From Polaribacter sp. BM10 (GTDB taxonomy: Bacteria > Bacteroidota > Bacteroidia > Flavobacteriales > Flavobacteriaceae), in NCBI RefSeq assembly GCF_002005425.1, contig NZ_CP019704.1, forward strand, positions 1,942,001-2,006,000: 64,000 nt of DNA, given 5' to 3'. The translations under genes were made by a program, and so were the position numbers. The notes under the pieces were generated by a model, which worked only from the letters and a program-made list of their open reading frames with translations, did no database searches and was not told the DNA's origin. Positions 8,596 to 63,946 of the stretch are shown piece after piece. Each line of letters begins with the position of its first letter. Positions within the stretch are counted from its first letter, which is position 1.

Positions 8596-9117
8596 TTAGC
8601 GATCTAAGACATCTTTAATCAACCAATCATCTAAAGATAATTCTTCTGATGAATGTAAAACAGAAATATCACCTGTAGTCTCAAAAATTACAGCTTTTAC
8701 TTCAGATAATTTTAAAACATTTGCTTCTCTTAACTTCGCTCTTAAATCTCCTTCGGTAACCTGTGCCTTTTTAAGGTTTTCCCACAAAATTTGATCATTC
8801 TTCATTAAAAACAAAGGCTCATTATCTACAATATTTCTAAAAAACTGAAACCTTCTTAAATATGCAGTTATGCCTTGTAATACATAAATTGTTGTCAAAC
8901 CAAATACACCTTCAAATAAAGAAACGGACTTAGAAAGTAATGTTGATGCAATAATAGAACCAATTGCAATTGTGCAAGCAAAATCGAAACTAGACATTTT
9001 AGAAAAGCTACGTTTACCAAAAATTTTAGTGAGTAGTATAATGATAATATAAATACCCAAACAAGATACAAATATAAATTGCAGTGTATTATAGTTGGTA
9101 AAAATCCATTCTTTCAT
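8596..9117 (-). CDS. DUF421 (YetF/YcaP-like) membrane protein
   Basis: The 173-residue product carries the DUF421 layout: membrane helices in the first 80 residues, the hallmark FGKRSFSKMSSFDFACTIAIG across the second and third helices, then a soluble C-terminal domain with EPLFLMKNDQILWENLKKA and a final short tail. YetF-like proteins are inner-membrane proteins of unclear function. I chose ATG 9117 (MKEWIFTNYN); the upstream start at 9150 adds eleven residues unlike the family. tRNA-Gln lies just upstream on the same strand, separated by a very strong terminator, so the gene probably has its own promoter or depends on read-through. Confidence 0.85.
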   Translation of the reverse strand: MKEWIFTNYNTLQFIFVSCLGIYIIIILLTKIFGKRSFSKMSSFDFACTIAIGSIIASTLLSKSVSLFEGVFGLTTIYVLQGITAYLRRFQFFRNIVDNEPLFLMKNDQILWENLKKAQVTEGDLRAKLREANVLKLSEVKAVIFETTGDISVLHSSEELSLDDWLIKDVLDR

Positions 9118-9152
9118 GTTCTTATTTTTGTGTAAAAATATAAGAAACAAAT

Positions 9153-9190
9153 AAAAAGTCCTAACAAATTAAATTTGTTAGGACTTTTTT
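9153..9190 (-). terminator. Strong hairpin terminator behind tRNA-Gln
   Basis: AAAAAGTCCTAACAAATT and its almost complete inverse copy form a stem of about 18 pairs with nearly no loop, ending in T runs on both strands. It directly follows the tRNA-Gln gene on the minus strand. Confidence 0.9.
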
Positions 9191-9191
9191 G

Positions 9192-9263
9192 TTGGCCTAC
9201 AAGGACTCGAACCTTGAATGACGGTACCAAAAACCGGAGTGTTGCCAATTACACCATAGGCCA
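9192..9263 (-). tRNA. tRNA-Gln (anticodon TTG)
   Basis: The minus strand folds as a cloverleaf. The acceptor arms are TGGCCTA and TAGGCCA, the D stem is GTGT/ACAC, and the anticodon loop TTTTGGT sits in a CCGGT/ACCGT stem, with one mismatch at the base. The T arm is CAAGG-TTCGAGT-CCTTG. The anticodon is TTG, decoding CAA and CAG as glutamine. The CCA tail is not encoded: the bases after the discriminator A read CAA, so it must be added enzymatically. Confidence 0.96.
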
Positions 9264-9435
9264 ATGCTTTAATGCGGGTGCAAATTTAAAACTTTCTTTT
9301 AAACTCACAAACATTTTTAAATATTTTTTTTCTTTAACAAAGATTTATGAGGTTTTTTAAGTCTAAAAACCCACTTTTAAATGTTTATATATTTATTTAT
9401 TGTTAAATTCGCCCACACATAATTAAGCATTTCTT

Positions 9436-12400
9436 ATGACATCAGCAAACTTTAAAAAATGGAATATCATTTTAGGATGGTTCACATTTATAATTGCGCT
9501 AATAACCTACTCTTTAACAATAGAACCAACAGTTAGTGCTTGGGATGTTGGAGAATATATTGCAACTTCTGTAAAACTAGAAGTTGGGCATCCGCCAGGT
9601 GCACCTTTATTTCAAATGTTAGGCGCATTTTTTGCAATGTTTACATCAGAAAGTTCTGAAATTGCCAAAATGGTAAACTTTATGTCTGCTTTAGCTAGTG
9701 CATTTACTATTTTGTTTATGTTTTGGACAATTACCAATTTAGGTGAAAAATTAGCTTTAAAATCAGGAAAATTAACAGAAGGTAGCTATATAGCAATTTT
9801 AGGAAGTAGTATTGTAGGTTCTTTGGCCTATACATTTTCTGATAGTTTTTGGTTTAGTGCCGTAGAAGGAGAAGTGTATGCGATGTCTTCTTTTTTAATG
9901 GCAATACTATTTTGGTTAGGCTTAAAATGGGAAAGTGAACTACACACTGCACGTGGTAACAAATGGCTAATTCTAATAAGTTTTGTTGTTGGTTTGTCTT
10001 TTGGTGTACATATTTTATCATTACTTGTAATTCCTGCAATTGTAATGTTATATTTCTTTAAGACTTATAAAAACATCAATCTAAAATCTACAGCTATTGC
10101 AACAGTTTTATCTGTTTTTGTTTTAGCTTTTGTTTTTAAGTTTTTATTTCCTTTTACACTTAAGTTTTTTAGTGCTTCAGAATTATTTTTTATCAATACA
10201 ATTGGCTTACCATACAATTCTGGTAGTATTATTGCTGCAATTATTCTAATGGCCCTTTTCTTCTTCGGATTAAAATACACTCGAAAAAAGAAAAAAGTAC
10301 ACATAAATACGCTAATACTTGCTGTTTTATTTATTATGATTGGTTTCTCGTCTTGGATGATGTTACCAATTAGAGCAAACGCAAACACTACAATTAACGA
10401 AAACAACCCTTCTAGTGCTAGAGAATTATTAGCCTATTACGAACGTGAGCAATATGGTGACGCAAATGTGTTTTACGACACTTATTACTCTAATAAATAC
10501 AGCAGAGAACAAGATGCAAACAATCCTTTAAAGGATGACAAGCCTAAATACGAAAAGAAAAATGGCAAATATGTTATTGTAAACAAATACAAGAATGTTG
10601 TACCAAATTATTCTGATAAGCATAAAGGTTTTATTCCAAGAATGGTAGATCCTGCATCCGAAGAAATGTATAAAAAAATTGCCGGTATTCCTTTAAACAG
10701 TAAAAGAAGACCCACTTTTGGCGAGAACCTAAAGTTTATGTTTAGCTATCAATTTGGCTATATGTATGGTCGTTATTTTATGTGGAATTTTGTTGGAAGA
10801 CAAAACGATATTCAAGGTCGATTAGATTTATTTAACGGAAACTGGATTAGCGGTATCGATGCTATCGACGAAGTTCGATTAGGCTCTCAACAACAATTAC
10901 CGTCTCAAGTTTTAGAAAACAAAGGAAGAAATAAATATTATTTTTTACCATTAATTTTAGGATTAATTGGTTTATTTTTTCAAGTAAAATGGGATAAAGA
11001 AAACTTCTTTACACTTTTCTTATTTTTCGCTTTTACTGGTTTTGCAATTATATTTTACACAAACCCAAAACCTTTTGAACCTAGAGAAAGAGATTATGCG
11101 GTTGTAGGTAGTTTTTACATTTTTGCAATATGGATTGGCTTTGGAGTTCTAGCACTTTATGAATACTTAAAGAATGTTGCCAATAAAAAAACGATTGCAA
11201 TTGCAGTTTCTGTAATAACACTTTTGGCAGTACCAACATTAATGGCATCAGAAAATTGGGATGACCACGATAGATCTAACAGATATACAACACGTTTAAA
11301 TGCACAAGCTTATTTAGAAAGTTGCGATGAAAACGCAATTATGTTTACCATTGGAGATAATGATACTTTCCCGCTTTGGTACATGCAAGAAGTAGAAGGT
11401 ATTAGAACAGATTTAAAGCTAGTAAACACAAGTTTATTTGCTACAGATTGGTATATCGACCAAATGAAAAGAGCAACTTATGATGCTCCTCCGATTCCTT
11501 CTCAATTAAAACATGACCAATATAAATACGGAAGTTTAGATATTGCATATCATATAGAACACCCAAGATTTAAAGACTCTATTATAGAAATTAAAGATTT
11601 TATGCGTTGGATTTCTTCTGATAGTGATGCAACTTATTATATTGTTGAAGAAGAAAATATCAAAGAAAAATATTATCCTACAAACAGAATTAGAATTCCT
11701 GTAAACAAAGAAAACGTTTTAAAAAGCGGAATTGTTGCACAAAAAGATGCAGACAAAATTGTAGACTTTATAGATATTACTATTGATGATAGAGGCATTA
11801 CAAAAAACCGCCTTTTAATGTTAGATATCTTAGCAAATAACGACTGGAAACGCCCAATTTACTTTACTGGTGGGGCAAATGCCGATGAAGAATATATTTG
11901 GTTAAAAGACTATTTACAGTTAGATGGTTTGGCTTTTAAATTAGTACCAATTAAAACGCCAGCAAAATATATAGACGAATCTGGCAGACCAAGAGAAGTA
12001 AGTTTGTTTGATATTGGTAGAATAGATGCTGATAAAATGTACGCCAACATTAATAAACTAGATTGGAAAAATATAAATAGTGGCGAAATCTATTTAGACG
12101 AACAAACAAAAAGAAATGCAATTTCACTTAGAAACAGCCTAATGCGCTTATCTGATGCTTTTGCAAAACAAGGTGATACAATTAAAGCAGTAGAAGTATT
12201 AGACTTATCTTTAAGCAAAATGCCTATTGAAGATTTTGATCACTACAGTTTATCTTTGGGGTATCCAGAAATGTATTATAATTTAGGCGAAAACAATAAA
12301 GCTAAAGCAACAGCAGAAACACTAAGTAGGTTAATTATCGAAAAACTGACTTGGTTAAGTACGTTTGACAAAAATGATAGTGATTTAATTTTTGATGAAA

Positions 12401-27148: not shown

Positions 27149-29518
27149 ATGAATTTCTGGACAAAAGCAGCTGGTTTGATATTAAGAAACCGATACTTGG
27201 TTTTATTAATAATTGCACTAATAACAGCTTTTTTAGCATCTCAAATGAAGTATATGAAATTCTCATATACAGAAGCAAATCTTTTACCAGAAGATCATGC
27301 TGCAAATCTAGAGTATAATAAATTCTTAGAAATTTTTGGTGAAGAAGGTAATTTAGTAATCTTAGGCGTTAAAGATTCAACTGTTTTTACACCAGAAAAA
27401 TTTAATGCTTGGAATAAATTAGTAGAGCAATTTGATGCTAGAGAAGAAATAGATTTTACAGTATCTATTGCCGATGTACAAAAACTAAAGGCAGATAGAA
27501 AAAAGAGAAAGTTTATCTTAGAACCTTTATACGAAAAAAATCCAACTACTAAAGAAGAGGTTAACGCAATAAAAACACAACTTTTTGAAAAGCTTCCTTT
27601 TTACGACAACCTACTTTACAACAAAGAAACAGGTACTTTACAAACCGCAATTTATATTAAAAAGGAAATTATAAACACACCTCAAAGAAGAGATTTTATT
27701 TTTGATGTTTTAATTCCTGCCATAGAAAAATTTGAAGAGGAAAACAATCTAGATGTTAGGGTTTCTGGTATGCCATACATTAGAACCTTAAATGCCCAAA
27801 ATATTCAAGATGAAATTTTACTTTTTGTAGTAGGTGCATTAGGTATTACTGCATTAATATTTTTCTTTTTCTTTAGATCTTTTAGAGCAACATTTATAAC
27901 ACTTCTTGTAGTTCTAATTGGTGTTATTTGGGCTTTTGGTTTTATAGGATTGTTTCGATATGAAATTACTGTTTTATCAGCATTAATTCCGCCATTAATT
28001 ATCGTTATTGGTGTACCAAATGCGGTGTTTCTTATCAACAAATATCAACAAGAAATAAAAAAACACGGCCAGCAAGCAAAAGCTTTACAGCGTGTAATTT
28101 CTAAAATTGGTAACGCTACTTTAATGACAAACATTACCACGGCTTCTGGTTTTGCAACATTTGTCTTTGTAAAAAGTAATTTACTTAGAGAGTTTGGTAT
28201 TCTAGCCTCTGTAAACATAATTAGTATCTTTATTTTGGCTCTGTTGATAATACCTATTATCTATAGTTTTATGCCACTTCCTAAGAAAAAACACTTGAAC
28301 CATTTAGAAAGAAAATGGATTGAGAATGTTGTAAATTGGATGGAGAAAATGGTAAAAAATCAAAGAATTACAATTTATTTTGCAACCGTTATAGTTATCG
28401 TTTTAGGTATAATTGGAGTTTATAAAATTCGAGTTTCTGGTAGTTTAATAGAAGACATGCCTAAGAAAATGGATTTTTATAAAGACATTCGTTTTTTTGA
28501 AAAAGAGTTTGGTGGTATCATGCCTTTAGAGATTTTAATTGATACAAAAAAAGATAAAGGAGTCATGAAACTTTCAACTTTAAAAAAGATGGAAGAATTA
28601 AATGAAACTATTGAAACTTTTCCAGAATTATCGAAACCAATTTCTGTAGTAAACTTAGTTAAATATTCTAAACAAGCTTATTATAAGGGAAATCCAAGAT
28701 ATTATCAGTTACCAACAAATCAAGAACAAAGTTATATTTTTTCTTACACAAAAAACTCTAACAGTGATGCTGGCATGCTTAAAACCTTTGTAGATTCTAC
28801 AGGTAGATATGCGAGAATTACAACTTTTATGAAAGATATTGGTACCGATAAAATGGATATCATTCAAGAACGATTAAAAGCAGTTATCGCAAAAGAATTT
28901 CCTGAAGATAAGTATACAGTTTCTTTAACTGGTAAGGCTTTGGTTTTTATAAAAGGAACTAATTACTTAATTAACAATTTAGTAATCTCTTTATCATTAG
29001 CTATTTTACTGATTGCAATATTTATGGCTTGGATGTTTAGATCACCACAAATGATCTTAATTTCTTTGATACCAAACATGCTTCCTTTATTAATTACTGC
29101 AGGTTTAATGGGCTTTTTAGACATCCCTATAAAACCATCTACAATTTTAGTTTTTAGTATTGCTTTTGGTATTTCTGTTGATGATACTATTCACTTTTTA
29201 GCAAAATACAGACAAGAATTAATTGCCAATAAATGGAAAATTAAACCCTCTGTTTATGCGGCTTTAAGAGAAACAGGTGTAAGTATGTTTTATACCTCTA
29301 TTGTATTGTTTTTTGGCTTTTTAGTATTTACACTTTCTAGTTTTGGAGGTACAATTGCTTTAGGTGGTTTGGTTTCTGTAACGTTACTTTTAGCCATGGT
29401 TTCTAATTTATTACTATTACCATCTCTTTTATTAACTTTTGAAAAGAAAATTGCCAATAAAAAAGTATTTAAAGAACCTAAAATGAAGATTTTTCCTCCT
29501 AAAGAAGATAAAGAATAA
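27149..29518 (+). CDS. RND superfamily (MMPL/Patched-like) exporter
   Basis: The 789-residue protein has the duplicated RND layout. One membrane helix (about 15-33) is followed by a soluble domain and a bundle of five helices (about 225-375), then the same pattern repeats (helix near 410, bundle about 615-770). SIAFGISVDDTIHFLAKYRQ in the second half matches the conserved fourth-helix region with the proton-relay Asp. These proteins move lipids, hydrophobic compounds or drugs across the inner membrane by proton exchange. No partner adaptor or outer-membrane channel gene is adjacent, so it may work alone on lipid-like cargo. Confidence 0.87.
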   Translation: MNFWTKAAGLILRNRYLVLLIIALITAFLASQMKYMKFSYTEANLLPEDHAANLEYNKFLEIFGEEGNLVILGVKDSTVFTPEKFNAWNKLVEQFDAREEIDFTVSIADVQKLKADRKKRKFILEPLYEKNPTTKEEVNAIKTQLFEKLPFYDNLLYNKETGTLQTAIYIKKEIINTPQRRDFIFDVLIPAIEKFEEENNLDVRVSGMPYIRTLNAQNIQDEILLFVVGALGITALIFFFFFRSFRATFITLLVVLIGVIWAFGFIGLFRYEITVLSALIPPLIIVIGVPNAVFLINKYQQEIKKHGQQAKALQRVISKIGNATLMTNITTASGFATFVFVKSNLLREFGILASVNIISIFILALLIIPIIYSFMPLPKKKHLNHLERKWIENVVNWMEKMVKNQRITIYFATVIVIVLGIIGVYKIRVSGSLIEDMPKKMDFYKDIRFFEKEFGGIMPLEILIDTKKDKGVMKLSTLKKMEELNETIETFPELSKPISVVNLVKYSKQAYYKGNPRYYQLPTNQEQSYIFSYTKNSNSDAGMLKTFVDSTGRYARITTFMKDIGTDKMDIIQERLKAVIAKEFPEDKYTVSLTGKALVFIKGTNYLINNLVISLSLAILLIAIFMAWMFRSPQMILISLIPNMLPLLITAGLMGFLDIPIKPSTILVFSIAFGISVDDTIHFLAKYRQELIANKWKIKPSVYAALRETGVSMFYTSIVLFFGFLVFTLSSFGGTIALGGLVSVTLLLAMVSNLLLLPSLLLTFEKKIANKKVFKEPKMKIFPPKEDKE

Positions 29519-29540
29519 TTATAAATGTTATTTATATATA

Positions 29541-29573
29541 AAAAACCGGTGACTTAATAAACCACCGGTTTTT
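29541..29573. terminator. Bidirectional terminator between the exporter and the LRR gene
   Basis: AAAAACCGGTG (29541-29551) pairs with CACCGGTTTTT (29563-29573) around an 11-base loop; A and T flanks allow use by both convergent genes. Confidence 0.9.
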
Positions 29574-29598
29574 CTATTTAGTCTCAAAAATAAACTCC

Positions 29599-32500
29599 TT
29601 ACTTTTTCATAATTCTTTTCATAATATTACCTTTTGCTGTATCTATTTTTAATAAGTAAACACCTTCTGATAAATTAGAAATATTTATTTTATTTATAGG
29701 ATTTTTAATTAATTGTAACCTTTTACCTAAAAGATTATACACTTCAATTTTTTTAATATTTACATTATTAATATTTTGAATTTGTAAAACATCTTTAACA
29801 GGATTAGGATATAATTTTATGTAATTACTTAATACAATCTCTTTATTAACACTTAATGTTTCATCATAGTTAAGAGTAACCCTTTGTGTTTCTATATTAA
29901 ATCCTGTAATAATAGGATTAGAAACAAGACAAAAGTAATATCCAGCATCTTGTTGTGTTGCATCTGTAATAACATATTCTTTACTAGTAGCATCTGTAAT
30001 TGGACTTCCATTTTTATACCATTGGTACATATTATTAGTTCCACTAACTATTGCTACTAGAGTTTTATCGTAACCATCACCAAAATCTACAGTTTCCTCT
30101 ACCCCAACTTTTGCTTGATTAGAATAACTAAACGTTTGTAAATTCTGATAATCTATAAATTCATTTTCAAAATCACCAAATTGAAATTTATTGCTACTAA
30201 TATATAAACTTGTTAAATTGGTTGCATTCGTAAAATCAGGTAAATTACCCTTAATTTCATTATTTTGTAGATATACCGTTTTTAAGGCTAACATATTACT
30301 CATTTCTGTCGGTAAACTTGTAATCTTATTGCTGTTCAAATATAAAGTTTCTAAAGAGGCTAAATTCCCAAAAGTAGATGGAATTGCTCCCGAAATTTCA
30401 TTAGAACCTATCTGTAAATTTGTTAACTTAGTTAAATTCCCAATACTCTCTGGTAATTCTCCTTTAAGCTTATTACTATTCAAAGAAATATTAGTAATAT
30501 GCTTACCTCCATCAACAATTTTGGTGGTTATTCCTTGCCATTTTGTAGCATTGTATGGATTGTTAATAAGCGCTTTTGCTAAATTTCCATTCCAATTGGT
30601 ATTATTAGTCCAATTTGCTCCCTCTAAATTATTATATAAATCTACCAAAGCTTTAATTTCATTTTCTGGTACATTATTATATGCACTACAATCTTGTCCC
30701 CAAACAATATTTGAATATTGACTTGCAAAAGAAGTTGCTTCCCAGGCTAAAATAGTATTCTCTGGAACTGAAATACAGTTTAAGTATTGATTATAAAAAA
30801 TAAAAGTATTAGAAAATTGTTCTTCTGAATTATAACTATTATCAAAATTAGACGGAGCAACACCTATTTTTAAACCTGTAATTTCATTTCCAGAGACATT
30901 TAAAGATATCAAATTAGTTAAATTTGAAAAATCTAAATTTCCTTCTAATTGATTAGAACTTAACTCCAATCTTTTTAATGAAGAAATATTATTAATTTCT
31001 ACCGGTATTGTATTTAAAACATATTCTTGAATATTAGAATTATATTGATTATTGAATGTTAACTGTTCTAAGTTAGCCAATTCTCCAATTTCAGTTGGTA
31101 TTTCTGATATAAAATTGCTATTTAGCTCTAACTCTTTTAATTGTATTAAGTTTTTAATTACGGATGGAATGGTACCATCTAATTCATTGGAATTTAATTC
31201 AACCTTTGTTACGTGCTTTTGTCCATTAATTACCTCTGTTGTAACCCCAAACCAAGCTCCAACATTTCTTTTTAAGCTAGAATCTGTTTCCCAAACAACT
31301 CCGTTATAAGAACTAGATAAATCGTTTCTCCAATTCATACCTTTTGTACTGTTGTATAAAGCAATTAATGCTTCTCTTTCTAGATCTGGAATGGAATTAG
31401 TGGTTACCGCATTACAATTATCTGAATAAACAACTCCATTATCTATTATACCGCCTTCTTCTTTGTAATTAGACAATTGCCATGCAACTAGCTCGTCACT
31501 AGGCACTTCTACACAACCCAAAGCATTTCTATTTAGTCTCAATCTATTTGCTCTCGGATTTGTTGTATTGGTTCCAAAAATTGTTGGTGCAACGGCAATT
31601 TTTAATTCCGAAATATTATTGAAATCTGCTCTAAAGTCATTTAAAACTTCTGATAAACCTAAATTAATAGAACCCGATATTCTATTATTACTAATATTAA
31701 ATGTTTCTAATAAAATTAAATTGGTCATTGTACTTGGTAAACTTTCTAAAACGTTACCCTGTAAATACAATTTCTCTAAACTAACAATATTCCCAATTTC
31801 ATCTGGCAAACTATTTAACGTATTTGTTGGTTGATATCTAACAGGACTTGTGGTTTGATTATTTAGTCTTAATTCCTTTAAACTTGTAAAATTACCAATA
31901 CCCGATGGTAAGCTTGTTAATCCATTGTAACTTAAATCTAACTTTTCTAATGTTGCTATGTTACCAATCTCATTTGGTAAAGTTGTTAGAGTTGATGTGT
32001 ATTGAGAAGTATTTGTATTTATTCTTTGATAGCTTAAATTCAACTCTACTAAACTAGTAAAATCTCCTATTCCTACAGGTAAACTCTCTAAACTATTAGA
32101 AGATAAATTTAAATGCGTTAATTTACTTAAACCTCCTATTTCTGTGGCTATTGAAGTTATTTTTCCAGAGGATAAATTTAGCAACGTTAACTCTGGTAAA
32201 TCTGCTATTTCTTTTGGTACAACTCCTGATAATTGATTACTAATCAACTCTATTTTAGTTACGTGTTTCTGTCCGTTGATAATCTCTGTAGTTACTCCTT
32301 GCCAAGAACCTACATTGGTTAATTCTGTAGCATCAGAACTCCAATTTGTACCAACCCAAGTAACTCCTATTGTTGCATCTACCTTGTCTCCTCCGTTTGT
32401 GGCAATATACAATGCAACCAAAGCTTCTCGCTCACTTTGTGGAACTCTAAAGCCTGAACAACTATCGCTAAATGCTATTCCATTGTCTGCTATCTGGGGT

Positions 32501-35500
32501 CTTTGTGCATATCGGGTTTCCCAATTTGTAACTTCTGCTGTAGGAACTTCTACACAACTTAAATAAGGGTTATTACTGATATTAAAATGATAGGTTGGAT
32601 TAGACGATAAGCTAAAATTAATTACAGGCGCATCTATTTTTAAATCGGTAATCTTATTATTATTTAATTGCAAACGCTTTAATTTTATCACATTTGTTAA
32701 ATCAACCAATCCGCCTATTTCATTATTCTCCGCTTCTAAAACCTCCAAATTGGTTAACTGATTCATCGTACTTGGCAAACTTGTTAAATAATATGTATAA
32801 GTACCTGTAGACGAATCATACGTTTGCATATTTTCTAAATACAACTCTTTCAAATTTGATAAGTCGCCAATTTCTGCTGGTAAAGTTGCTATTTTATTAC
32901 TATTACTACTCTGAGACAAATACAACTTCTCTAAATTTGTTAAACCGCCAATTGTTGCTGGCAAACTTGTTAACTCGTTACCCTGAACCTGCAACTCTTT
33001 TAAACTAGTTAAACCATTTATTGTACTCGGAATGTTCGCAATAATATTATTCTGTAAATACAATTTTTCTAAACTAGTAATATTTCCGATTTCATCTGGT
33101 AAACTAGATAATGTATTTATTGGTTGATATCTAACAGGACTTGTGGTTTGATTATTTAGTCTTAATTCCTTTAAACTTGTAAAATTACCAATACCCGATG
33201 GTAAGCTTGTTAATCCATTGTAACTTAAATCTAACTTTTCTAATGTTGCTATGTTACCAATCTCATTTGGTAAAGTTGTTAGAGTTGATGTGTATTGAGA
33301 AGTATTTGTATTTATTCTTTGATAGCTTAAATTCAACTCTACTAAACTAGTAAAATCTCCTATTCCTACAGGTAAGCTCTCTAAACTATTAGAAGATAAA
33401 TTTAAATGCGTTAATTTACTTAAACCTCCTATTTCTGTGGCTATTGAAGTTATTTTTCCAGAGGATAAATTTAGCAACGTTAACTCTGGTAAATCTGCTA
33501 TTTCTTTTGGTACAACTCCTGATAATTGATTACTAATCAACTCTATTTTAGTTACGTGTTTCTGTCCGTTGATAATCTCTGTAGTTACTCCTTGCCAAGA
33601 ACCTACATTGGTTAATTCTGTAGCATCAGAACTCCAATTTGTACCAACCCAAGTAACTCCTGTTGTTGCATCTACCTTGTCTCCTCCGTTTGTGGCAATA
33701 TACAATGCAACCAAAGCTTCTCGCTCACTTTGTGGAACTCTAAAGCCTGAACAACTATCGCTAAATGCTATTCCGTTGTCTGCTATCTGGGGTCTTTGTG
33801 CATATCGGGTTTCCCAATTTGTAACTTCTGCTGTAGGAACTTCTACACAACTTAAATAAGGGTTATTACTGATATTAAAATGATAGGTTGGATTAGACGA
33901 TAAGCTAAAATTAATTACAGGCGCATCTATTTTTAAATCGGTAATCTTATTATTATTTAATTGCAAACGCTTTAATTTTATCACATTTGTTAAATCAACC
34001 AATCCGCCTATTTCATTATTCTCCGCTTCTAAAACCTCCAAATTGGTTAACTGATTCATCGTACTTGGCAAACTTGTTAAATAATATGTATAAGTACCTG
34101 TAGACGAATCATACGTTTGCATATTTTCTAAATACAACTCTTTCAAATTTGATAAGTCGCCAATTTCTGCTGGTAAAGTTGCTATTTTATTACTATTACT
34201 ACTCTGAGACAAATACAACTTCTCTAAATTTGTTAAACCGCCAATTGTTGCAGGCAAACTTGTTAATTCGTTACCCTGTAACTGCAACTCTTTTAAACTA
34301 GTTAAACCATTTATTGTACTCGGAATGTTCGCAATAATATTATTCTGTAAATACAATTTTTCTAAACTAGTAATATTTCCGATTTCATCTGGTAAACTAG
34401 ATAATGTATTTGTTGGTTGATATCTAACAGGACTTGTGGTTTGATTATTTAGTCTTAATTCCTTTAAACTTGTAAAATTACCAATACCCGATGGTAAGCT
34501 TGTTAATCCATTGTAACTTAAATCTAACTTTTCTAATGTTGCTATGTTACCAATCTCATTTGGTAAAGTTGTTAGAGTTGATGTGTATTGAGAAGTATTT
34601 GTATTTATTCTTTGATAGCTTAAATTCAACTCTACTAAACTAGTAAAATCTCCTATTCCTACAGGTAAACTCTCTAAACTATTAGAAGATAAATTTAAAT
34701 GCGTTAATTTACTTAAACCTCCTATTTCTGTAGCTACTGAAGTTATTTTTCCAGATGATAAATTTAGCAACGTTAACTCTGGTAAATCTGCTATTTCTTT
34801 TGGTACAACTCCTGATAATTGATTACTAATCAACTCTATTTTAGTTACATGTTTCTGTCCGTTGATAATCTCTGTAGTTACTCCTTGCCAAGAACCTACA
34901 TTGGTTAATTCTGTAGCATCTGAACTCCAATTTGTACCAACCCAAGTAACTCCTATTGTTGCATCTACCTTGTCTCCTCCGTTTGTGGCAATATACAATG
35001 CAACCAAAGCTTCTCGCTCACTTTGTGGAACTCTAAAGCCTGAACAACTATCGCTAAATGCTATTCCGTTGTCTGCTATCTGGGGTCTTTGTGCATATCT
35101 GGTTTCCCAATTTGTAACTTCTGCTGTAGGAACTTCTACACAACTTAAATAAGGGTTATTACTGATATTAAAATGATAGGTTGGATTAGACGATAAGCTA
35201 AAATTAATTACAGGCGCATCTATTTTTAAATCTTCAATCTTATTATTATTTAATTGCAAACGCTTTAATTTTATCACATTTGTTAAATCAACCAATCCGC
35301 CTATTTCATTATTCTCCGCTTCTAAAACCTCCAAATTGGTTAACTGATTCATCGTACTTGGCAAACTTGTTAAATAATATGTATAAGTACCTGTAGACGA
35401 ATCATACGTTTGCATATTTTCTAAATACAACTCTTTCAAATTTGATAAGTCGCCAATTTCTGCTGGTAAAGTTGCTATTTTATTACTATTACTACTCTGA

Positions 35501-37089
35501 GACAAATACAACTTCTCTAAATTTGTTAAACCGCCAATTGTTGCTGGCAAACTTGTTAACTCGTTACCCTGAACCTGCAACTCTTTTAAGTCAGTTAGAT
35601 TACCAATACTATTTGGTAAAAACGTTAGCCTATTATTATAAATTTTTAAAGATGTTAAGTTTAGCAAAGCGCCAATATTAGAAGGCAATTTTGTTAACTG
35701 ATTACTATACAATGTTAGTTCTTCTAGTAGTACTAAATCGCTTAAATCTTCGGGTAAATCAGTATTAAAATTTGGGTTGTCTTCTCCTAATCTATTATTG
35801 TGTAATCGAAGGTGTTTCAATTTTGTAAAACCACCTAAACCAGCAACCACTTGTAATTCGTTATTATTCAAGTATAAAGTTTCTAAATTGGTTAAATTGG
35901 CAAATGCTGTAGGTGTATTAGAAAGTTTACAATTCGAAAAATCTAAGTAGGTTAGTTTTGATAGTTGCCCTAATTCTGTTGGTATACTTGCTATATTATT
36001 AGGTGCTGCAACTAATCTAGTTAATTCTGCTAAATTACCTATTTGAGGTGGTAATAAAGTAATTTTAGTAGAGCCTAATTCTAAAATTTCTAATTTCAAT
36101 AAATTTTCAATTGTAGTTGGAAGTAAATCTACTTGCGTAGTATTAAATTTTAAAGAAATTAATTCTACTAAATCACCAACAGTACTTGGTATTGTAGTTA
36201 AAGTATTGTTGATACTTACATCTAAATGATTTAATTTAGATAAACCACCTATTTCATTTGGAATTGAACTGATTTGATTTTGACTTAATTTTAACTCTAA
36301 TAATTCTGAAAAATCTCCAATTTCAACAGGCAAACCTCCATTTAAACCCATTCCATGAAAAAATAATTTTGTTATTCTTCTAACTGTTCCAAAATCTTTA
36401 GTTACAATACCTCTTAAATCTTCTGGATTCGTATTTGCTACTATTTCTGTACTGCCATAATTATTATAAGACCATGCAGTTCCATTAGTAGTATTAAATA
36501 TTGCTTTTAAAGCTGCTTTTTCTGTAGCATCTAATGGTAAGACTCCGCTACAATTATCAGTTATTTTAATTCCTAAATCAAAATTATTCATAGATAAAGA
36601 ATGGTAACTATTAATTGAGCTCGATGGCACTTCAACACAATTTAAATTAGGTACATCTTTGATATTTAGCGTTACATATTTATGAAGTTTTAAACTCGTA
36701 ATACCAGTATTATTAAGTTTTACATTATCAATGGTTGCAGCGTAATTATCGAAATTTACACCACCTGAAAAACTCATATTTTCTGAAAAATCTACGGAGG
36801 TTATATTTGATAAATTTACCAAACTAGAAAAACTTCCGTTTAAATTATTGTTCGATAAATTGATTTCCGTAACGTAATCTTGACCATTAATTTCTGTTAC
36901 TGTAACTCCATACCAATTAGAAACATCAGAAGTAATATTTATATCTGTATTCCAATTGGTATTATTCGTCCAATTAGCTCCATCTGTAGCATTGTAAAAA
37001 TCTATTAATGCTTGTCTTTCTGTTTGTGAAATTTGCGCATTTATAGTTATACTTATAAACGCGAAAATTAATAGTAGTTTTCCTCTCAT
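29599..37089 (-). CDS. Giant secreted leucine-rich-repeat protein with type IX sorting domain
   Basis: The 2,496-residue precursor has a signal peptide (MRGKLLLIFAFISITINAQ) and a C-terminal type A type IX secretion domain from about residue 2420, with LYPNPVKDVLQI, IEVYNLLGK, ISNLSEGVYLLKI and a basic KRIMKK end. In between lie seven modules. Each starts with a cap such as EREALIALYNSTKGMNW (starts near 22, 190, 687, 1118, 1549, 1904 and 2143), continues with LRRs of the form LTSLPxxIGxLTxLExL, and most end in a cysteine-containing cap (CVEVP...DNCSG). An Ig-like segment (YQWYKNGSPI) lies near 2356. Modules three to five are almost identical at the DNA level. The protein is probably surface-attached or released and may mediate adhesion or recognition. 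Confidence 0.93.
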   Translation of the reverse strand: MRGKLLLIFAFISITINAQISQTERQALIDFYNATDGANWTNNTNWNTDINITSDVSNWYGVTVTEINGQDYVTEINLSNNNLNGSFSSLVNLSNITSVDFSENMSFSGGVNFDNYAATIDNVKLNNTGITSLKLHKYVTLNIKDVPNLNCVEVPSSSINSYHSLSMNNFDLGIKITDNCSGVLPLDATEKAALKAIFNTTNGTAWSYNNYGSTEIVANTNPEDLRGIVTKDFGTVRRITKLFFHGMGLNGGLPVEIGDFSELLELKLSQNQISSIPNEIGGLSKLNHLDVSINNTLTTIPSTVGDLVELISLKFNTTQVDLLPTTIENLLKLEILELGSTKITLLPPQIGNLAELTRLVAAPNNIASIPTELGQLSKLTYLDFSNCKLSNTPTAFANLTNLETLYLNNNELQVVAGLGGFTKLKHLRLHNNRLGEDNPNFNTDLPEDLSDLVLLEELTLYSNQLTKLPSNIGALLNLTSLKIYNNRLTFLPNSIGNLTDLKELQVQGNELTSLPATIGGLTNLEKLYLSQSSNSNKIATLPAEIGDLSNLKELYLENMQTYDSSTGTYTYYLTSLPSTMNQLTNLEVLEAENNEIGGLVDLTNVIKLKRLQLNNNKIEDLKIDAPVINFSLSSNPTYHFNISNNPYLSCVEVPTAEVTNWETRYAQRPQIADNGIAFSDSCSGFRVPQSEREALVALYIATNGGDKVDATIGVTWVGTNWSSDATELTNVGSWQGVTTEIINGQKHVTKIELISNQLSGVVPKEIADLPELTLLNLSSGKITSVATEIGGLSKLTHLNLSSNSLESLPVGIGDFTSLVELNLSYQRINTNTSQYTSTLTTLPNEIGNIATLEKLDLSYNGLTSLPSGIGNFTSLKELRLNNQTTSPVRYQPTNTLSSLPDEIGNITSLEKLYLQNNIIANIPSTINGLTSLKELQLQGNELTSLPATIGGLTNLEKLYLSQSSNSNKIATLPAEIGDLSNLKELYLENMQTYDSSTGTYTYYLTSLPSTMNQLTNLEVLEAENNEIGGLVDLTNVIKLKRLQLNNNKITDLKIDAPVINFSLSSNPTYHFNISNNPYLSCVEVPTAEVTNWETRYAQRPQIADNGIAFSDSCSGFRVPQSEREALVALYIATNGGDKVDATTGVTWVGTNWSSDATELTNVGSWQGVTTEIINGQKHVTKIELISNQLSGVVPKEIADLPELTLLNLSSGKITSIATEIGGLSKLTHLNLSSNSLESLPVGIGDFTSLVELNLSYQRINTNTSQYTSTLTTLPNEIGNIATLEKLDLSYNGLTSLPSGIGNFTSLKELRLNNQTTSPVRYQPINTLSSLPDEIGNITSLEKLYLQNNIIANIPSTINGLTSLKELQVQGNELTSLPATIGGLTNLEKLYLSQSSNSNKIATLPAEIGDLSNLKELYLENMQTYDSSTGTYTYYLTSLPSTMNQLTNLEVLEAENNEIGGLVDLTNVIKLKRLQLNNNKITDLKIDAPVINFSLSSNPTYHFNISNNPYLSCVEVPTAEVTNWETRYAQRPQIADNGIAFSDSCSGFRVPQSEREALVALYIATNGGDKVDATIGVTWVGTNWSSDATELTNVGSWQGVTTEIINGQKHVTKIELISNQLSGVVPKEIADLPELTLLNLSSGKITSIATEIGGLSKLTHLNLSSNSLESLPVGIGDFTSLVELNLSYQRINTNTSQYTSTLTTLPNEIGNIATLEKLDLSYNGLTSLPSGIGNFTSLKELRLNNQTTSPVRYQPTNTLNSLPDEIGNIVSLEKLYLQGNVLESLPSTMTNLILLETFNISNNRISGSINLGLSEVLNDFRADFNNISELKIAVAPTIFGTNTTNPRANRLRLNRNALGCVEVPSDELVAWQLSNYKEEGGIIDNGVVYSDNCNAVTTNSIPDLEREALIALYNSTKGMNWRNDLSSSYNGVVWETDSSLKRNVGAWFGVTTEVINGQKHVTKVELNSNELDGTIPSVIKNLIQLKELELNSNFISEIPTEIGELANLEQLTFNNQYNSNIQEYVLNTIPVEINNISSLKRLELSSNQLEGNLDFSNLTNLISLNVSGNEITGLKIGVAPSNFDNSYNSEEQFSNTFIFYNQYLNCISVPENTILAWEATSFASQYSNIVWGQDCSAYNNVPENEIKALVDLYNNLEGANWTNNTNWNGNLAKALINNPYNATKWQGITTKIVDGGKHITNISLNSNKLKGELPESIGNLTKLTNLQIGSNEISGAIPSTFGNLASLETLYLNSNKITSLPTEMSNMLALKTVYLQNNEIKGNLPDFTNATNLTSLYISSNKFQFGDFENEFIDYQNLQTFSYSNQAKVGVEETVDFGDGYDKTLVAIVSGTNNMYQWYKNGSPITDATSKEYVITDATQQDAGYYFCLVSNPIITGFNIETQRVTLNYDETLSVNKEIVLSNYIKLYPNPVKDVLQIQNINNVNIKKIEVYNLLGKRLQLIKNPINKINISNLSEGVYLLKIDTAKGNIMKRIMKK
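31815..35600. repeat. Near-perfect tandem triplication of a 1,293-bp unit inside the LRR gene
   Basis: The same DNA recurs at offsets of exactly 1,293 bases; for example, identical blocks start at 32276, 33569 and 34862. The array runs from about 31815 to 35600, close to three units, and diverges at both edges into related but different LRR sequence. Only scattered single-base changes separate the copies. The unit is 431 codons, so copy loss or gain keeps the reading frame. Each unit encodes part of one LRR array, a cysteine cap and the next cap domain. Confidence 0.95.
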
Positions 37090-37198
37090 TTTTGGTTATT
37101 TTAATCTTTATCAAATATATAAATCAAACAAAAGCATGTAAATACCTAATTGTAGGTATATTTTAAAGCTAAAACAACGAACAACTACACGCTAATAA

Positions 37199-37231
37199 TT
37201 GTACTTAATCCTTCAAAAAAAAGTATATTTG
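37199..37231 (+). promoter_or_regulatory. Promoter of the asnS operon
   Basis: TTG (37199-37201), a 22-base spacer and TATATTTG (37224-37231) match the flavobacterial pattern, 43 bases before the asnS start. Confidence 0.65.
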
Positions 37232-37274
37232 CTTTATTAGTAAAAGACAATTTTCGAATACAATATATATTAAG

Positions 37275-38711
37275 ATGATGACGAATAATAACGTAGCAGA
37301 ATTATTAGAATCTGGTAAAGTTTTACAAGAGGTAACAATAAAAGGTTGGGTAAGAACTTTTAGAAGTAATCGTTTTATTGCTTTAAATGACGGTTCAACA
37401 ATTAATAATATTCAGTGTGTAATAGATTTTGAAAACACATCCGAAGAAATACTAAAAAGAATTACAACTGGTGCAGCAGTATCTATAAAGGGAGTTATTG
37501 CAGAAAGCCAAGGTAAAGGACAATCTGTAGAAATTCAGGTTTCTGAAATTGAAATACTTGGAGACTCAAATCCAGATGAATATCCTATTCAGCCTAAAAA
37601 ACATAGTTTCGAATTTTTAAGAGAAAATGCACATTTACGTGTTAGAACAAATACGTTTAGTGCAGTAATGAGAGTTCGATCTAAACTATCTTTTGCTGTT
37701 CATAAATATTTTCAAGACAACGGTTTTAATTACGTAAACACACCAATTGTTACAGGTTCTGATGCAGAAGGTGCTGGTGAAATGTTTAGAGTTACTTCTT
37801 TTGAAGATAACAAAGCACCTGTTACAGAAGATGGTAAAATCGATTATTCTAAAGACTTTTTTGGTAAAGAAACAAATCTAACAGTTTCTGGTCAATTAGA
37901 AGCAGAAACCTACGCAATGGCGTTAGGAAAAGTATATACGTTTGGCCCAACTTTTAGAGCAGAAAATTCTAATACTACCCGTCATTTGGCAGAATTTTGG
38001 ATGATTGAACCAGAAGTTGCTTTTATGGATTTAGACGGCAATATGGATCTTGCCGAAGATTTTATTAAATCTGTTTTATCGTATGTTTTAGAGCACTGTA
38101 AAGAAGATTTAGCCTTTTTAGATCAACGTTTTACACAAGAAGAAAAAACAAAACCTCAATTGCAAAGAAGCGATATGAGTTTATTAGAAAAATTAAAGTT
38201 TGTTGCTGATAACAATTTTAAACGTGTATCCTATACAGAGGCAATCGATATTTTAAGAAACTCTAAGCCTAATAAAAAGAAAAAATTTCAGTTTCCAATT
38301 AATGAATGGGGCGCAGATTTACAATCTGAACACGAACGTTATCTAGTTGAAAAACACTTTAAATGTCCAGTGATTTTGTTTGATTATCCTGCAAATATTA
38401 AAGCATTTTATATGCGTTTAAATGAAGACGGAAAAACCGTAAGAGCTATGGATGTACTTTTCCCTGGAATTGGTGAAATGGTTGGTGGTGCACAACGTGA
38501 AGAACGTTATGATGTTTTAGTAGAAAAAATGAAAGCCATGAACATTGACGAAAAAGAACTTTGGTGGTATTTAGATTTAAGAAAGTTTGGTACAGCTGTT
38601 CACTCTGGTTTTGGATTAGGTTTCGAGAGACTAGTTCAATTTACAACCGGAATGGGAAATATTAGAGACGTTATTCCGTTTCCTAGAACACCACAAAACG
38701 CTGAATTTTAA
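37275..38711 (+). CDS. asnS: Asparaginyl-tRNA synthetase
   Basis: This class II synthetase charges tRNA-Asn. The N-terminal OB-fold anticodon-binding domain includes [22 protein letters not shown] (in part). The catalytic core has [43 protein letters not shown] (motif 2, in part), and [16 protein letters not shown] with the motif 3 arginine. The [17 protein letters not shown] pattern separates AsnRS from AspRS. Its 478 residues are typical. Two consecutive ATG codons (37275 and 37278) are both possible starts. It opens a tight cluster with a WG-repeat gene and rpoN. Confidence 0.96.
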
Positions 38712-62545: not shown

Positions 62546-63907
62546 TTATTTCTTGTTAGTTACTTTAACAACAACTCTTCTATTTTGAGCTCTTCCTGCT
62601 CTTGTTTTGTTAGTTGCAACTGGCTCTCCTTCTCCAAATCCGATAGCTTCTAATCTTGTAGTGCTAACTCCTTGTTTTACTAAGTAGTCTCTTACAGCGA
62701 TAGCTCTCTTTTCTGAAATTCTTAAGTTTAATGGTGCAGAACCTGAACTATCTGTATGACCTTCGATTACGAAAGTAGCACTTGGATTGTTGTTCATTAC
62801 TTTAACCATTTCGTTTAACTTAGCAGTAACACCTGGCTTGAAAGAAGATTTACCTACGTTAAATAAAATTGCTTTAGCATATTCAGATAACATGTTTTCA
62901 TCTTCTACATTAATAACTGGCTTAGGACAACCGTTGTTAGAAGCTGGTCCAGCAACATTAACACACTTGTCATCTTTATCTAATACACCGTCACCGTCAG
63001 TATCTGGCCAAGGACATCCACCGTTTGCCATTGGTCCTGCTTGAGAAGGACATTTATCGTTTTTATTAACTACACCGTCACCATCTGAATCAGGACAACC
63101 TTTGTTAGCTTTAGTTCCTTTTTCAGAAGGACACATGTCATCTTTATCAGCAACACCGTCACCATCAGCATCAGGACAACCGTTCATAGAAGCTAAACCT
63201 GCAACATTAGGACAAGCATCATCAGAATCTTTGATTCCGTCACCATCAGCATCAGGACATCCGTTAAATTCTTTTAAACCTGCAACCTCTGGACAAGCAT
63301 CATCTTTATCATATACTCCGTCTCCGTCAGTATCTTTTCCTCCAAATTTAATTACTAAACCTAAAGTAGTTTGGTAGTGAGCTTTTACTTCATCAGCAAA
63401 ACCTTTTTTAGTACCAGTTTGGAAGTTTAAACCTAAATTATCGTTAAACCAAGTATTGAAACCAACACCAGCATTTAACATACCTTCACCGTTAGAATCA
63501 ACTGAAGTATAACCACCACCTAAATATACATAAGGATCGAACCAAGCAGTTTCACCTACTAAGTTATTTAAATCATACTTTACAATTGCATCTACAGCCC
63601 AGTATAAAAAGTCTGAATCATCTTTTCTTGTAACTGTTTCAATTTTGTTTAAAGACCCTGCTAATTGTAAAGAAAAACCTTTATTAAGGTATTTATCTGC
63701 AGAAATTCTAGAAATTGACGGTAATACATTCCAGTCATTGTTTCCTAATAAATCTTTTACTTGCTCACTGAAATCATCAGTGTTGTAAAAATCTACATTG
63801 TTTAAACCAAAACCAACAGCCCACGGGTTGTTTTCATCTTGTGCATTTACGTTGCTTACAGCTACTAACGCAAATAAAGCTATCACAGCTAATTTTAATC
63901 GTTTCAT
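62546..63907 (-). CDS. OmpA-family outer-membrane protein with thrombospondin type 3 repeats
   Basis: The 453-residue precursor has a signal peptide ([22 protein letters not shown]). An N-terminal barrel covers about 25-195. Five thrombospondin type 3 repeats of the DxDGDGxxDxxDxCP form follow at about 195-330, each with acidic calcium-binding residues and a Cys pair. The C-terminal OmpA domain has [20 protein letters not shown] and [13 protein letters not shown], which bind peptidoglycan. It should anchor the outer membrane to the cell wall. I chose ATG 63907; the frame extends to a TTG at 63913. A complete promoter lies upstream. Confidence 0.95.
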
Positions 63908-63946
63908 TATCAAATTTTTAAATTAAAAGTTCGTTATTATAATACG

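Follow-up and report, generated by a model that had tools for sequence, protein, structure and literature searches.

An array of near-identical leucine-rich repeat modules within one Polaribacter gene probably evolves in concert

Internalin A and the variable lymphocyte receptors (VLRs) of lampreys are leucine-rich repeat (LRR) solenoids that bind their ligand on the concave face. A different theme is repetition of whole domains. Periscope proteins (SasG, Sgo_0707/SHIRT), as presented in the excerpted text of PMC8201768 and PMC9704523, are monomers at the cell surface whose tandem domains are long and highly identical. Changes in repeat number are proposed there to be driven by recombination between the identical DNA, and the search criterion for the class was tandem repeats of >50 residues with at least 80% identity (excerpts of PMC8201768). 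Homogenisation of repeats inside one gene is described for spider silk (PMC3933166, in part); the gene reported here differs in encoding a bacterial, modular LRR protein.

The locus studied here contains tandem units of 431 residues that are 98–100% identical per half at the amino-acid level, within the range of the Periscope search. It differs from Periscope proteins in having an LRR unit of 431 aa, a type IX secretion (T9SS) type A tail, mostly three copies and an array sequence that changes between sister species. The protein resembles repeat-array surface proteins, from which its LRR units, T9SS tail and usual three copies set it apart. The words "leucine" and "bacteroid" are absent from the main text of PMC8201768 and PMC9704523. 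No paper on LRR proteins and type IX secretion in Polaribacter was found in the open PMC literature, and PMC4829187 has LRR in its reference list only. Two open PMC papers on Polaribacter and LRR are, by title and abstract start, on other subjects. Among the titles and abstract starts listed from open PMC on Polaribacter LRR, LRR repeats and concerted evolution, tandem duplication of LRR in Bacteroidetes, concerted evolution of adhesins, variable-length T9SS and Periscope topics, no title names the array.

The Leptospira proteins LIC10831, LIC11098, LIC12759 and LSS01692 (PDB 4u06, 4u08, 4u09, 7yjw) rank with the best matches to a single module, both in sequence and in fold. The chain 7yjw_A superposes on the model of module M3 with a TM score of 0.76 by target length and an rmsd of 2.2. 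We know of no tandem array of near-identical 1.3-kb units in these Leptospira LRR proteins. Internalin A is among the fold matches and a receptor–VLR fusion among the sequence matches, both as general LRR resemblance only. Membership of the internalins was rejected, with NCBIfam models far under their cut-offs (internalin_A, 114.1 bits against 1600; internalin_H, 64.1 against 1050).

The window is a 64,000-nucleotide stretch of Polaribacter sp. BM10 (NZ_CP019704.1, positions 1,942,001 to 2,006,000), and its genome (G000) is one contig of 3,254,403 bases. The closest named orthologs of the LRR protein are from Polaribacter. Shifted by exactly 1,293 bp, the window aligns with itself from 31,748 to 34,324, giving an array that spans 31,748–35,617 and holds 2.99 units (Table 1). 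There are 23 mismatches at this offset within 31,850–34,290, and the flanks (29,000–31,700 and 34,400–37,500) have 23–41% identity per 100 bp. Self-BLAST returned in-frame matches of 98.7% over 2,538 bp at offset 1,293 and of 98.5% over 1,245 bp at offset 2,586. The near-identical 1,293-bp triplication that a preliminary description had placed at 31815–35600 is therefore real, with limits near those measured, and its claim of an in-frame unit of 431 codons is borne out. The tandem-repeat program, whose maximum period is 500, was silent on the array. The array has gradual edges, the match being lost over some tens of bases without a sharp stop, as expected if adjacent LRR modules were already weakly similar beforehand. 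Elsewhere in the window, an 81-bp tandem repeat of ~2.4 copies (63138–63334) lies in an OmpA-like gene (62546–63913, minus strand).

Table 1. Coordinates in the window of the LRR gene, its modules and repeat units, and the neighbouring genes
Feature	Position	Strand	Basis or remark
Gene for 2,496-aa LRR protein with secretion tail	29599–37089	-	ORF; LRR and T9SS tail families
M1: N-cap, short LRR stretch, C-cap; follows putative signal peptide	36541–37038	-	N-cap motif split
M2; C-half (35038–35589) is first half of unit A	35038–36540	-	N-cap motif split
M3, whole repeat module, 431 aa	33745–35037	-	N-cap motif split; LRR solenoid model
M4, whole repeat module	32452–33744	-	N-cap motif split; 98.99% identical to M3
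M5; N-half is last half of unit C, C-half unique	31399–32451	-	N-cap motif split
M6, unrepeated	30679–31398	-	N-cap motif split
M7, unrepeated, end approximate	30076–30678	-	N-cap motif split; LRR_8 at residues 2221–2279
Ig-like domain, weak	29914–30063	-	Ig_2 25.2 bits (cut-off 27); Ig_3 24.3 (cut-off 30)
T9SS type A C-terminal sorting domain	29602–29814	-	PF18962 48.5 bits (cut-off 27); TIGR04183 50 (cut-off 23)
Tandem array, three 1,293-bp units (2.99 copies)	31748–35617	-	Self-match at offset 1,293
Unit A, first in protein, residues about 501–931	34297–35589	-	BLAST limits 35589/34296 and offset
Unit B, residues about 932–1362	33004–34296	-	Self-match and BLAST
Unit C, from residue about 1363, last 70–80 bp fading	31748–33003	-	Self-match and BLAST
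asnS, one slot wall	37275–38711	+	TIGR00457 614.5 bits; conserved neighbour
RND/MMPL-like transporter gene, other slot wall	27149–29518	+	TIGR00921 211.7 bits, below cut-off 351.9; conserved neighbour

The host protein was predicted in the preliminary description to be a type IX-secreted LRR protein of 2,496 residues, and the open reading frame, the LRR families and the tail agree. LRR_14, LRR_4 and LRR_8 exceed their curated cut-offs, and the protein is probably exported to the cell surface via the predicted type IX sorting tail. Residues 1–17 are a putative signal peptide, from a hydrophobic N-terminus judged by eye. Cut at an N-cap motif that recurs along it, the protein divides into seven LRR modules (M1 to M7), most of which own both an N-cap and a C-cap. 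The repeat unit is not one such module. It is the C-half of one and the N-half of the next, running from the M2 LRRs through the M2 C-cap and the M3 N-cap into the M3 LRRs. The array therefore amounts to two whole modules (M3 and M4, which differ at 13 of 1,293 positions) and two halves (M2 and M5). Because the unit contains only complete codons and both its ends lie mid-LRR, in-register exchange would yield a protein of complete modules.

A genus search (E <= 1e-40) found the unit in 15 of 166 Polaribacter genomes. Three of these fall outside the unit count (G078, G138 and G172), with contigs that end in or at the array. Among the 12 countable orthologs, ten have three units (G000, G084, G154, G082, G106, G080, G181, G103, G013 and G021), one has two (G095, 100% identical over 1,095 bp) and one has a single unit (G004, a draft MAG with a contig end in M6 and a possibly collapsed repeat). 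Apart from G000, three units are present in seven single-contig genomes (G084, G154, G082, G080, G103, G013 and G021), and the array is read through in the drafts G106 (4 contigs), G095 (5) and G181 (100, with diverged copies). Unit length is 1,284–1,296 bp in G000, G084, G154, G082 and G013, and 1,125–1,149 bp in all remaining multicopy genomes. Arrays are in frame in nine of the ten three-unit orthologs. The exception is G103 (L144), whose copies are 99.9% identical and whose middle copy is put out of frame by one inserted base, either a mutation or a sequencing error. Length variation between strains or cells, also proposed in the preliminary description, was not seen in the sole conspecific pair: each genome has three units, and both open frames are 2,498 codons long. 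That three is the commonest count among related genomes suggests selection on size. Of 77 related loci, 2 have direct repeats that reach 300 bp and 95% identity, a lower bound with several loci ending inside the match. These are the Polaribacter Hel1_85 ortholog (L041, a contig of G106) and Aquimarina macrocephali (L056), where an LRR region (9046–10647) contains a 556-bp direct repeat, 96.6% identical, at offset 1,047.

Within genomes, nucleotide identity of the unit halves is 91.6–100% in G000, G084, G154, G021, G103, G095 and G106, 88–99.7% in G013, 80–100% in G082, 65–90% in G080 and 67–82% in G181. Mean identity of the halves between species is 54–79%. In trees of individual copies, these cluster by genome and not by position in 8 of the 11 multicopy genomes for the N-half and in 9 of 11 for the C-half (the N-half of the middle G103 copy, its frame broken by the inserted base, was excluded from trees and matrices). 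G080 and G181 depart from this in both halves and G000 in the N-half, where its copies do not form one clade and one joins the conspecific G084 (82/97). For groups named after seeing the tree, AU tests rejected position-wise pairing of G000 and G084 copies (A copies, C-half, p 5e-85; C copies, N-half, 4e-51), as well as pairing of the B and C copies of both genomes in the C-half (p 2e-5).

G084 is the only conspecific genome available beside G000. The two are 98.5% identical in rpoB and 96.5% in a 19.9-kb stretch with the gene. Three aligned 1,242-bp copies from both genomes have 91 variable sites, of which 55 are fixed between genomes, 25 vary in G000 only, 10 in G084 only and 1 in both with different patterns. 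None of the 91 has a copy-specific pattern common to both genomes. The G000 copies differ at 16–19 sites per pair. Synonymous divergence (dS) between genomes is 0.216–0.221 for each copy, and 0.18 and 0.098 in the 5' and 3' parts outside the array. Between copies it is 0.034–0.044 in G000 and 0.004–0.023 in G084, the two genomes covered (G082, G106 and G013 were left out, with indels unaligned). As dS between copies is far below that between genomes, silent sites have been homogenised too, which rules out protein-level constraint alone. Judged by these sites, the copies mostly descend from a common sequence younger than the G000/G084 split. Recent diversifying selection on the array was not seen in this pair, for which dN/dS in the array (0.11) is close to that of the 5' part (0.10) and below that of the 3' part (0.22); the A and B copies of G084 give 1.1, from only 5 changes.

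The relatives favour, by comparison of their arrays, repeated homogenisation of the units. Three similar copies with species-specific sequence, and no copy pattern common to the conspecifics, also agree with the earlier suggestion of a recent or continuously homogenised expansion. One pair of genomes departs from this. The A copies of G080 and G181 pair across species in the C-half tree (100/100), and by-genome grouping is rejected for the C-halves of G080 (p-AU 7e-6) and G181 (6e-6); for the N-halves, p-AU is 0.42 and 0.34. According to the trees, at least the A unit split from the others before the two species diverged, and all three units likely did so. The three-unit arrays of this pair (L142 and L143) are, on that evidence, a pair that has escaped from homogenisation. 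The same copy number with high divergence, which the preliminary description had set against its own reading, is found in these two genomes.

We propose the following course. Homologous recombination among units of one gene would keep resetting the copies to one sequence. It would combine module duplication by unequal crossing-over with gene conversion in shorter tracts, with the enzymes themselves presumed. By comparison between species, the common unit sequence would drift or be replaced. Difference patterns make it likely that both processes are at work. In G082, 4 of 1,296 positions separate M3 from M4 and the edge halves are only 80–86% like their interior counterparts, a pattern as expected from a single-module duplication. 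The same two modules show no difference in G084, 1 in G154 and 12 in G013, so that identity is 99.0–100% in G000, G084, G154, G082 and G013. In G106 and G021 the order of similarity is reversed or mixed, with differences packed in tracts of ~200–300 bp, and G013 has a difference tract of ~180 bp at the first edge. The packed tracts in these three genomes look like conversion tracts.

A larger change separates G013 from G021, sisters by rpoB (94.8%, starred branch). Their residue identity is 88–98% over the greater part of the M2 LRR region, mostly 76–92% in M6–M7, but 36–68% per 50 columns in the array. AU tests rejected the units of both genomes as one clade (N-half, p 5e-8; C-half, p 7e-10). 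The three copies are still alike within each genome despite the divergent arrays. The genomes group differently in trees of the 5' part and of the 3' part, and the gene looks like a mosaic. Across 66 genome pairs, the odd 3' part of G082 counted, unit identity falls below that of the 3' part in 48 and below that of the 5' part in 42. By this count the array is in general only somewhat more divergent than its flanks.

The gene is flanked by core genes, with rpsB, tsf, pyrH, frr and rpoN nearby in the window. In two genus searches of 162 genomes each, both walls of the interval (asnS and the transporter gene) were on one contig in 141 of 145 typed genomes. The walls are <600 bp apart in 102 of these, which counts as an empty slot, enclose this LRR gene in 10 and have other spacings in 29. 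G133 has an empty slot of 201 bp between wall proteins 99.2% and 98.6% identical to those of the window. By these spacings, the asnS–transporter interval is a fixed slot that the LRR gene occupies in some genomes and not in others. G082 is one of the 102 short slots, and its LRR gene sits elsewhere. At that locus (L140), the C-terminal part of the ortholog is 14–34% identical per 50 columns to that of G013, and the end resembles a T9SS tail by eye. Among the 14 slots that were opened, some contain alternative cargo, including genes that look like regulators by eye, and in G064 the slot encodes an LRR protein of 1,050 aa whose tail is similar.

Modelled from an alignment of four sequences, M3 takes the form of an LRR solenoid (mean pLDDT 72.8, pTM 0.79; residues 1–57 with pLDDT < 50). 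The two-module model (pTM 0.53, mean pLDDT 66.2) is too weak for module packing or rod shape. At positions that we take to lie on the concave face (20 columns from 5 LRR strands), mean entropy is 1.95 versus 1.51 in 51 polar-majority columns (permutation p 0.006, for a small sample of 11 related representatives, G084 omitted). This control is the strictest; with conserved structural columns in the control, p is 0.00015. Array replacement between sister species and variable concave residues together suggest recognition. The recognition protein put forward in the preliminary description is thus partly supported: the LRR fold, the T9SS tail and the concave-face variability fit, while the low dN/dS of the array in the conspecifics gives no sign of recent diversifying selection. 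Our best guess is a multivalent recognition function, in which near-identical modules would give repeated, multivalent binding of one extracellular ligand, and the flanking modules and tail would hold the array at the cell surface. It is a tentative and somewhat unlikely extension that the array is a device for concerted specificity, in which near-identical LRR modules would bind a single ligand with avidity, and intragenic recombination would spread a new or imported module, switching specificity array-wide. G013 and G021 would then be an example of such a switch.

Overall, we consider concerted evolution of the LRR module array in one gene probable. The data could instead reflect separate recent amplifications, each lineage going from one unit to two or three independently from the same weak LRR homology without continued exchange. 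Array edges that fade into weakly similar LRR sequence mean that the same breakpoints could recur, G095 with its two identical units and G004 with its one could be stages of this kind, and G082 resembles one recent module duplication. Yet ten genomes reach an equal number, at least the A unit of G080 and G181 is older than their species split, and the G000 copies already differ from one another with no pattern in common with the conspecific. G004 is also a draft MAG in which identical units have perhaps collapsed. On balance, independent amplification is unlikely. We regard it as quite unlikely that the protein is a Periscope-like one, whose identical DNA lets the copy number change and so sets how far it extends from the cell. 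In-frame tandem modules of such length and identity match the class of PMC8201768, and copy number ranges from 1 to 3 between species; against this stand three units in both conspecifics and in 10 of the 12 countable orthologs. LRR modules would also resemble binding domains more than stalk domains, and the two-module model is too poor to reveal a rod.

Two further explanations concern the origin of the copies. Near-identical 1.3-kb repeats are hard to assemble, as contigs ending in or at the array in three genomes attest, and an assembler might have tripled one unit. The copies differ at defined positions, however, and seven other single-contig genomes also have three units; an assembly artefact was judged very improbable. 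Silent cassettes elsewhere in the genome might rewrite the array, as in antigenic variation, and tract-like differences and the array change between G013 and G021 would be in keeping with this. A whole-genome search of G000 (E <= 0.001) found no second copy of the unit outside the gene. Of its 15 matches, 13 fall in the C-terminal Ig/tail region; the others are this gene and an LRR stretch of 30% identity. With no donor found in the window's genome, silent donor cassettes were rejected there, and this reading is scarcely credible.

Concerted evolution of the module array, if that reading is right, would make this gene a clear case of the process inside one bacterial gene. The genus offers natural contrasts: homogenised arrays, the escaped arrays of G080 and G181, two-unit and possible single-unit states, and a sister pair with different arrays. 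G078, G138 and G172 are a warning that the gene can break draft assemblies. The contrasts let one ask what repeat divergence stops recombination, with G080 and G181 as a natural case for an identity threshold. They also let one ask whether surface recognition proteins may profit from identical over diversified modules.
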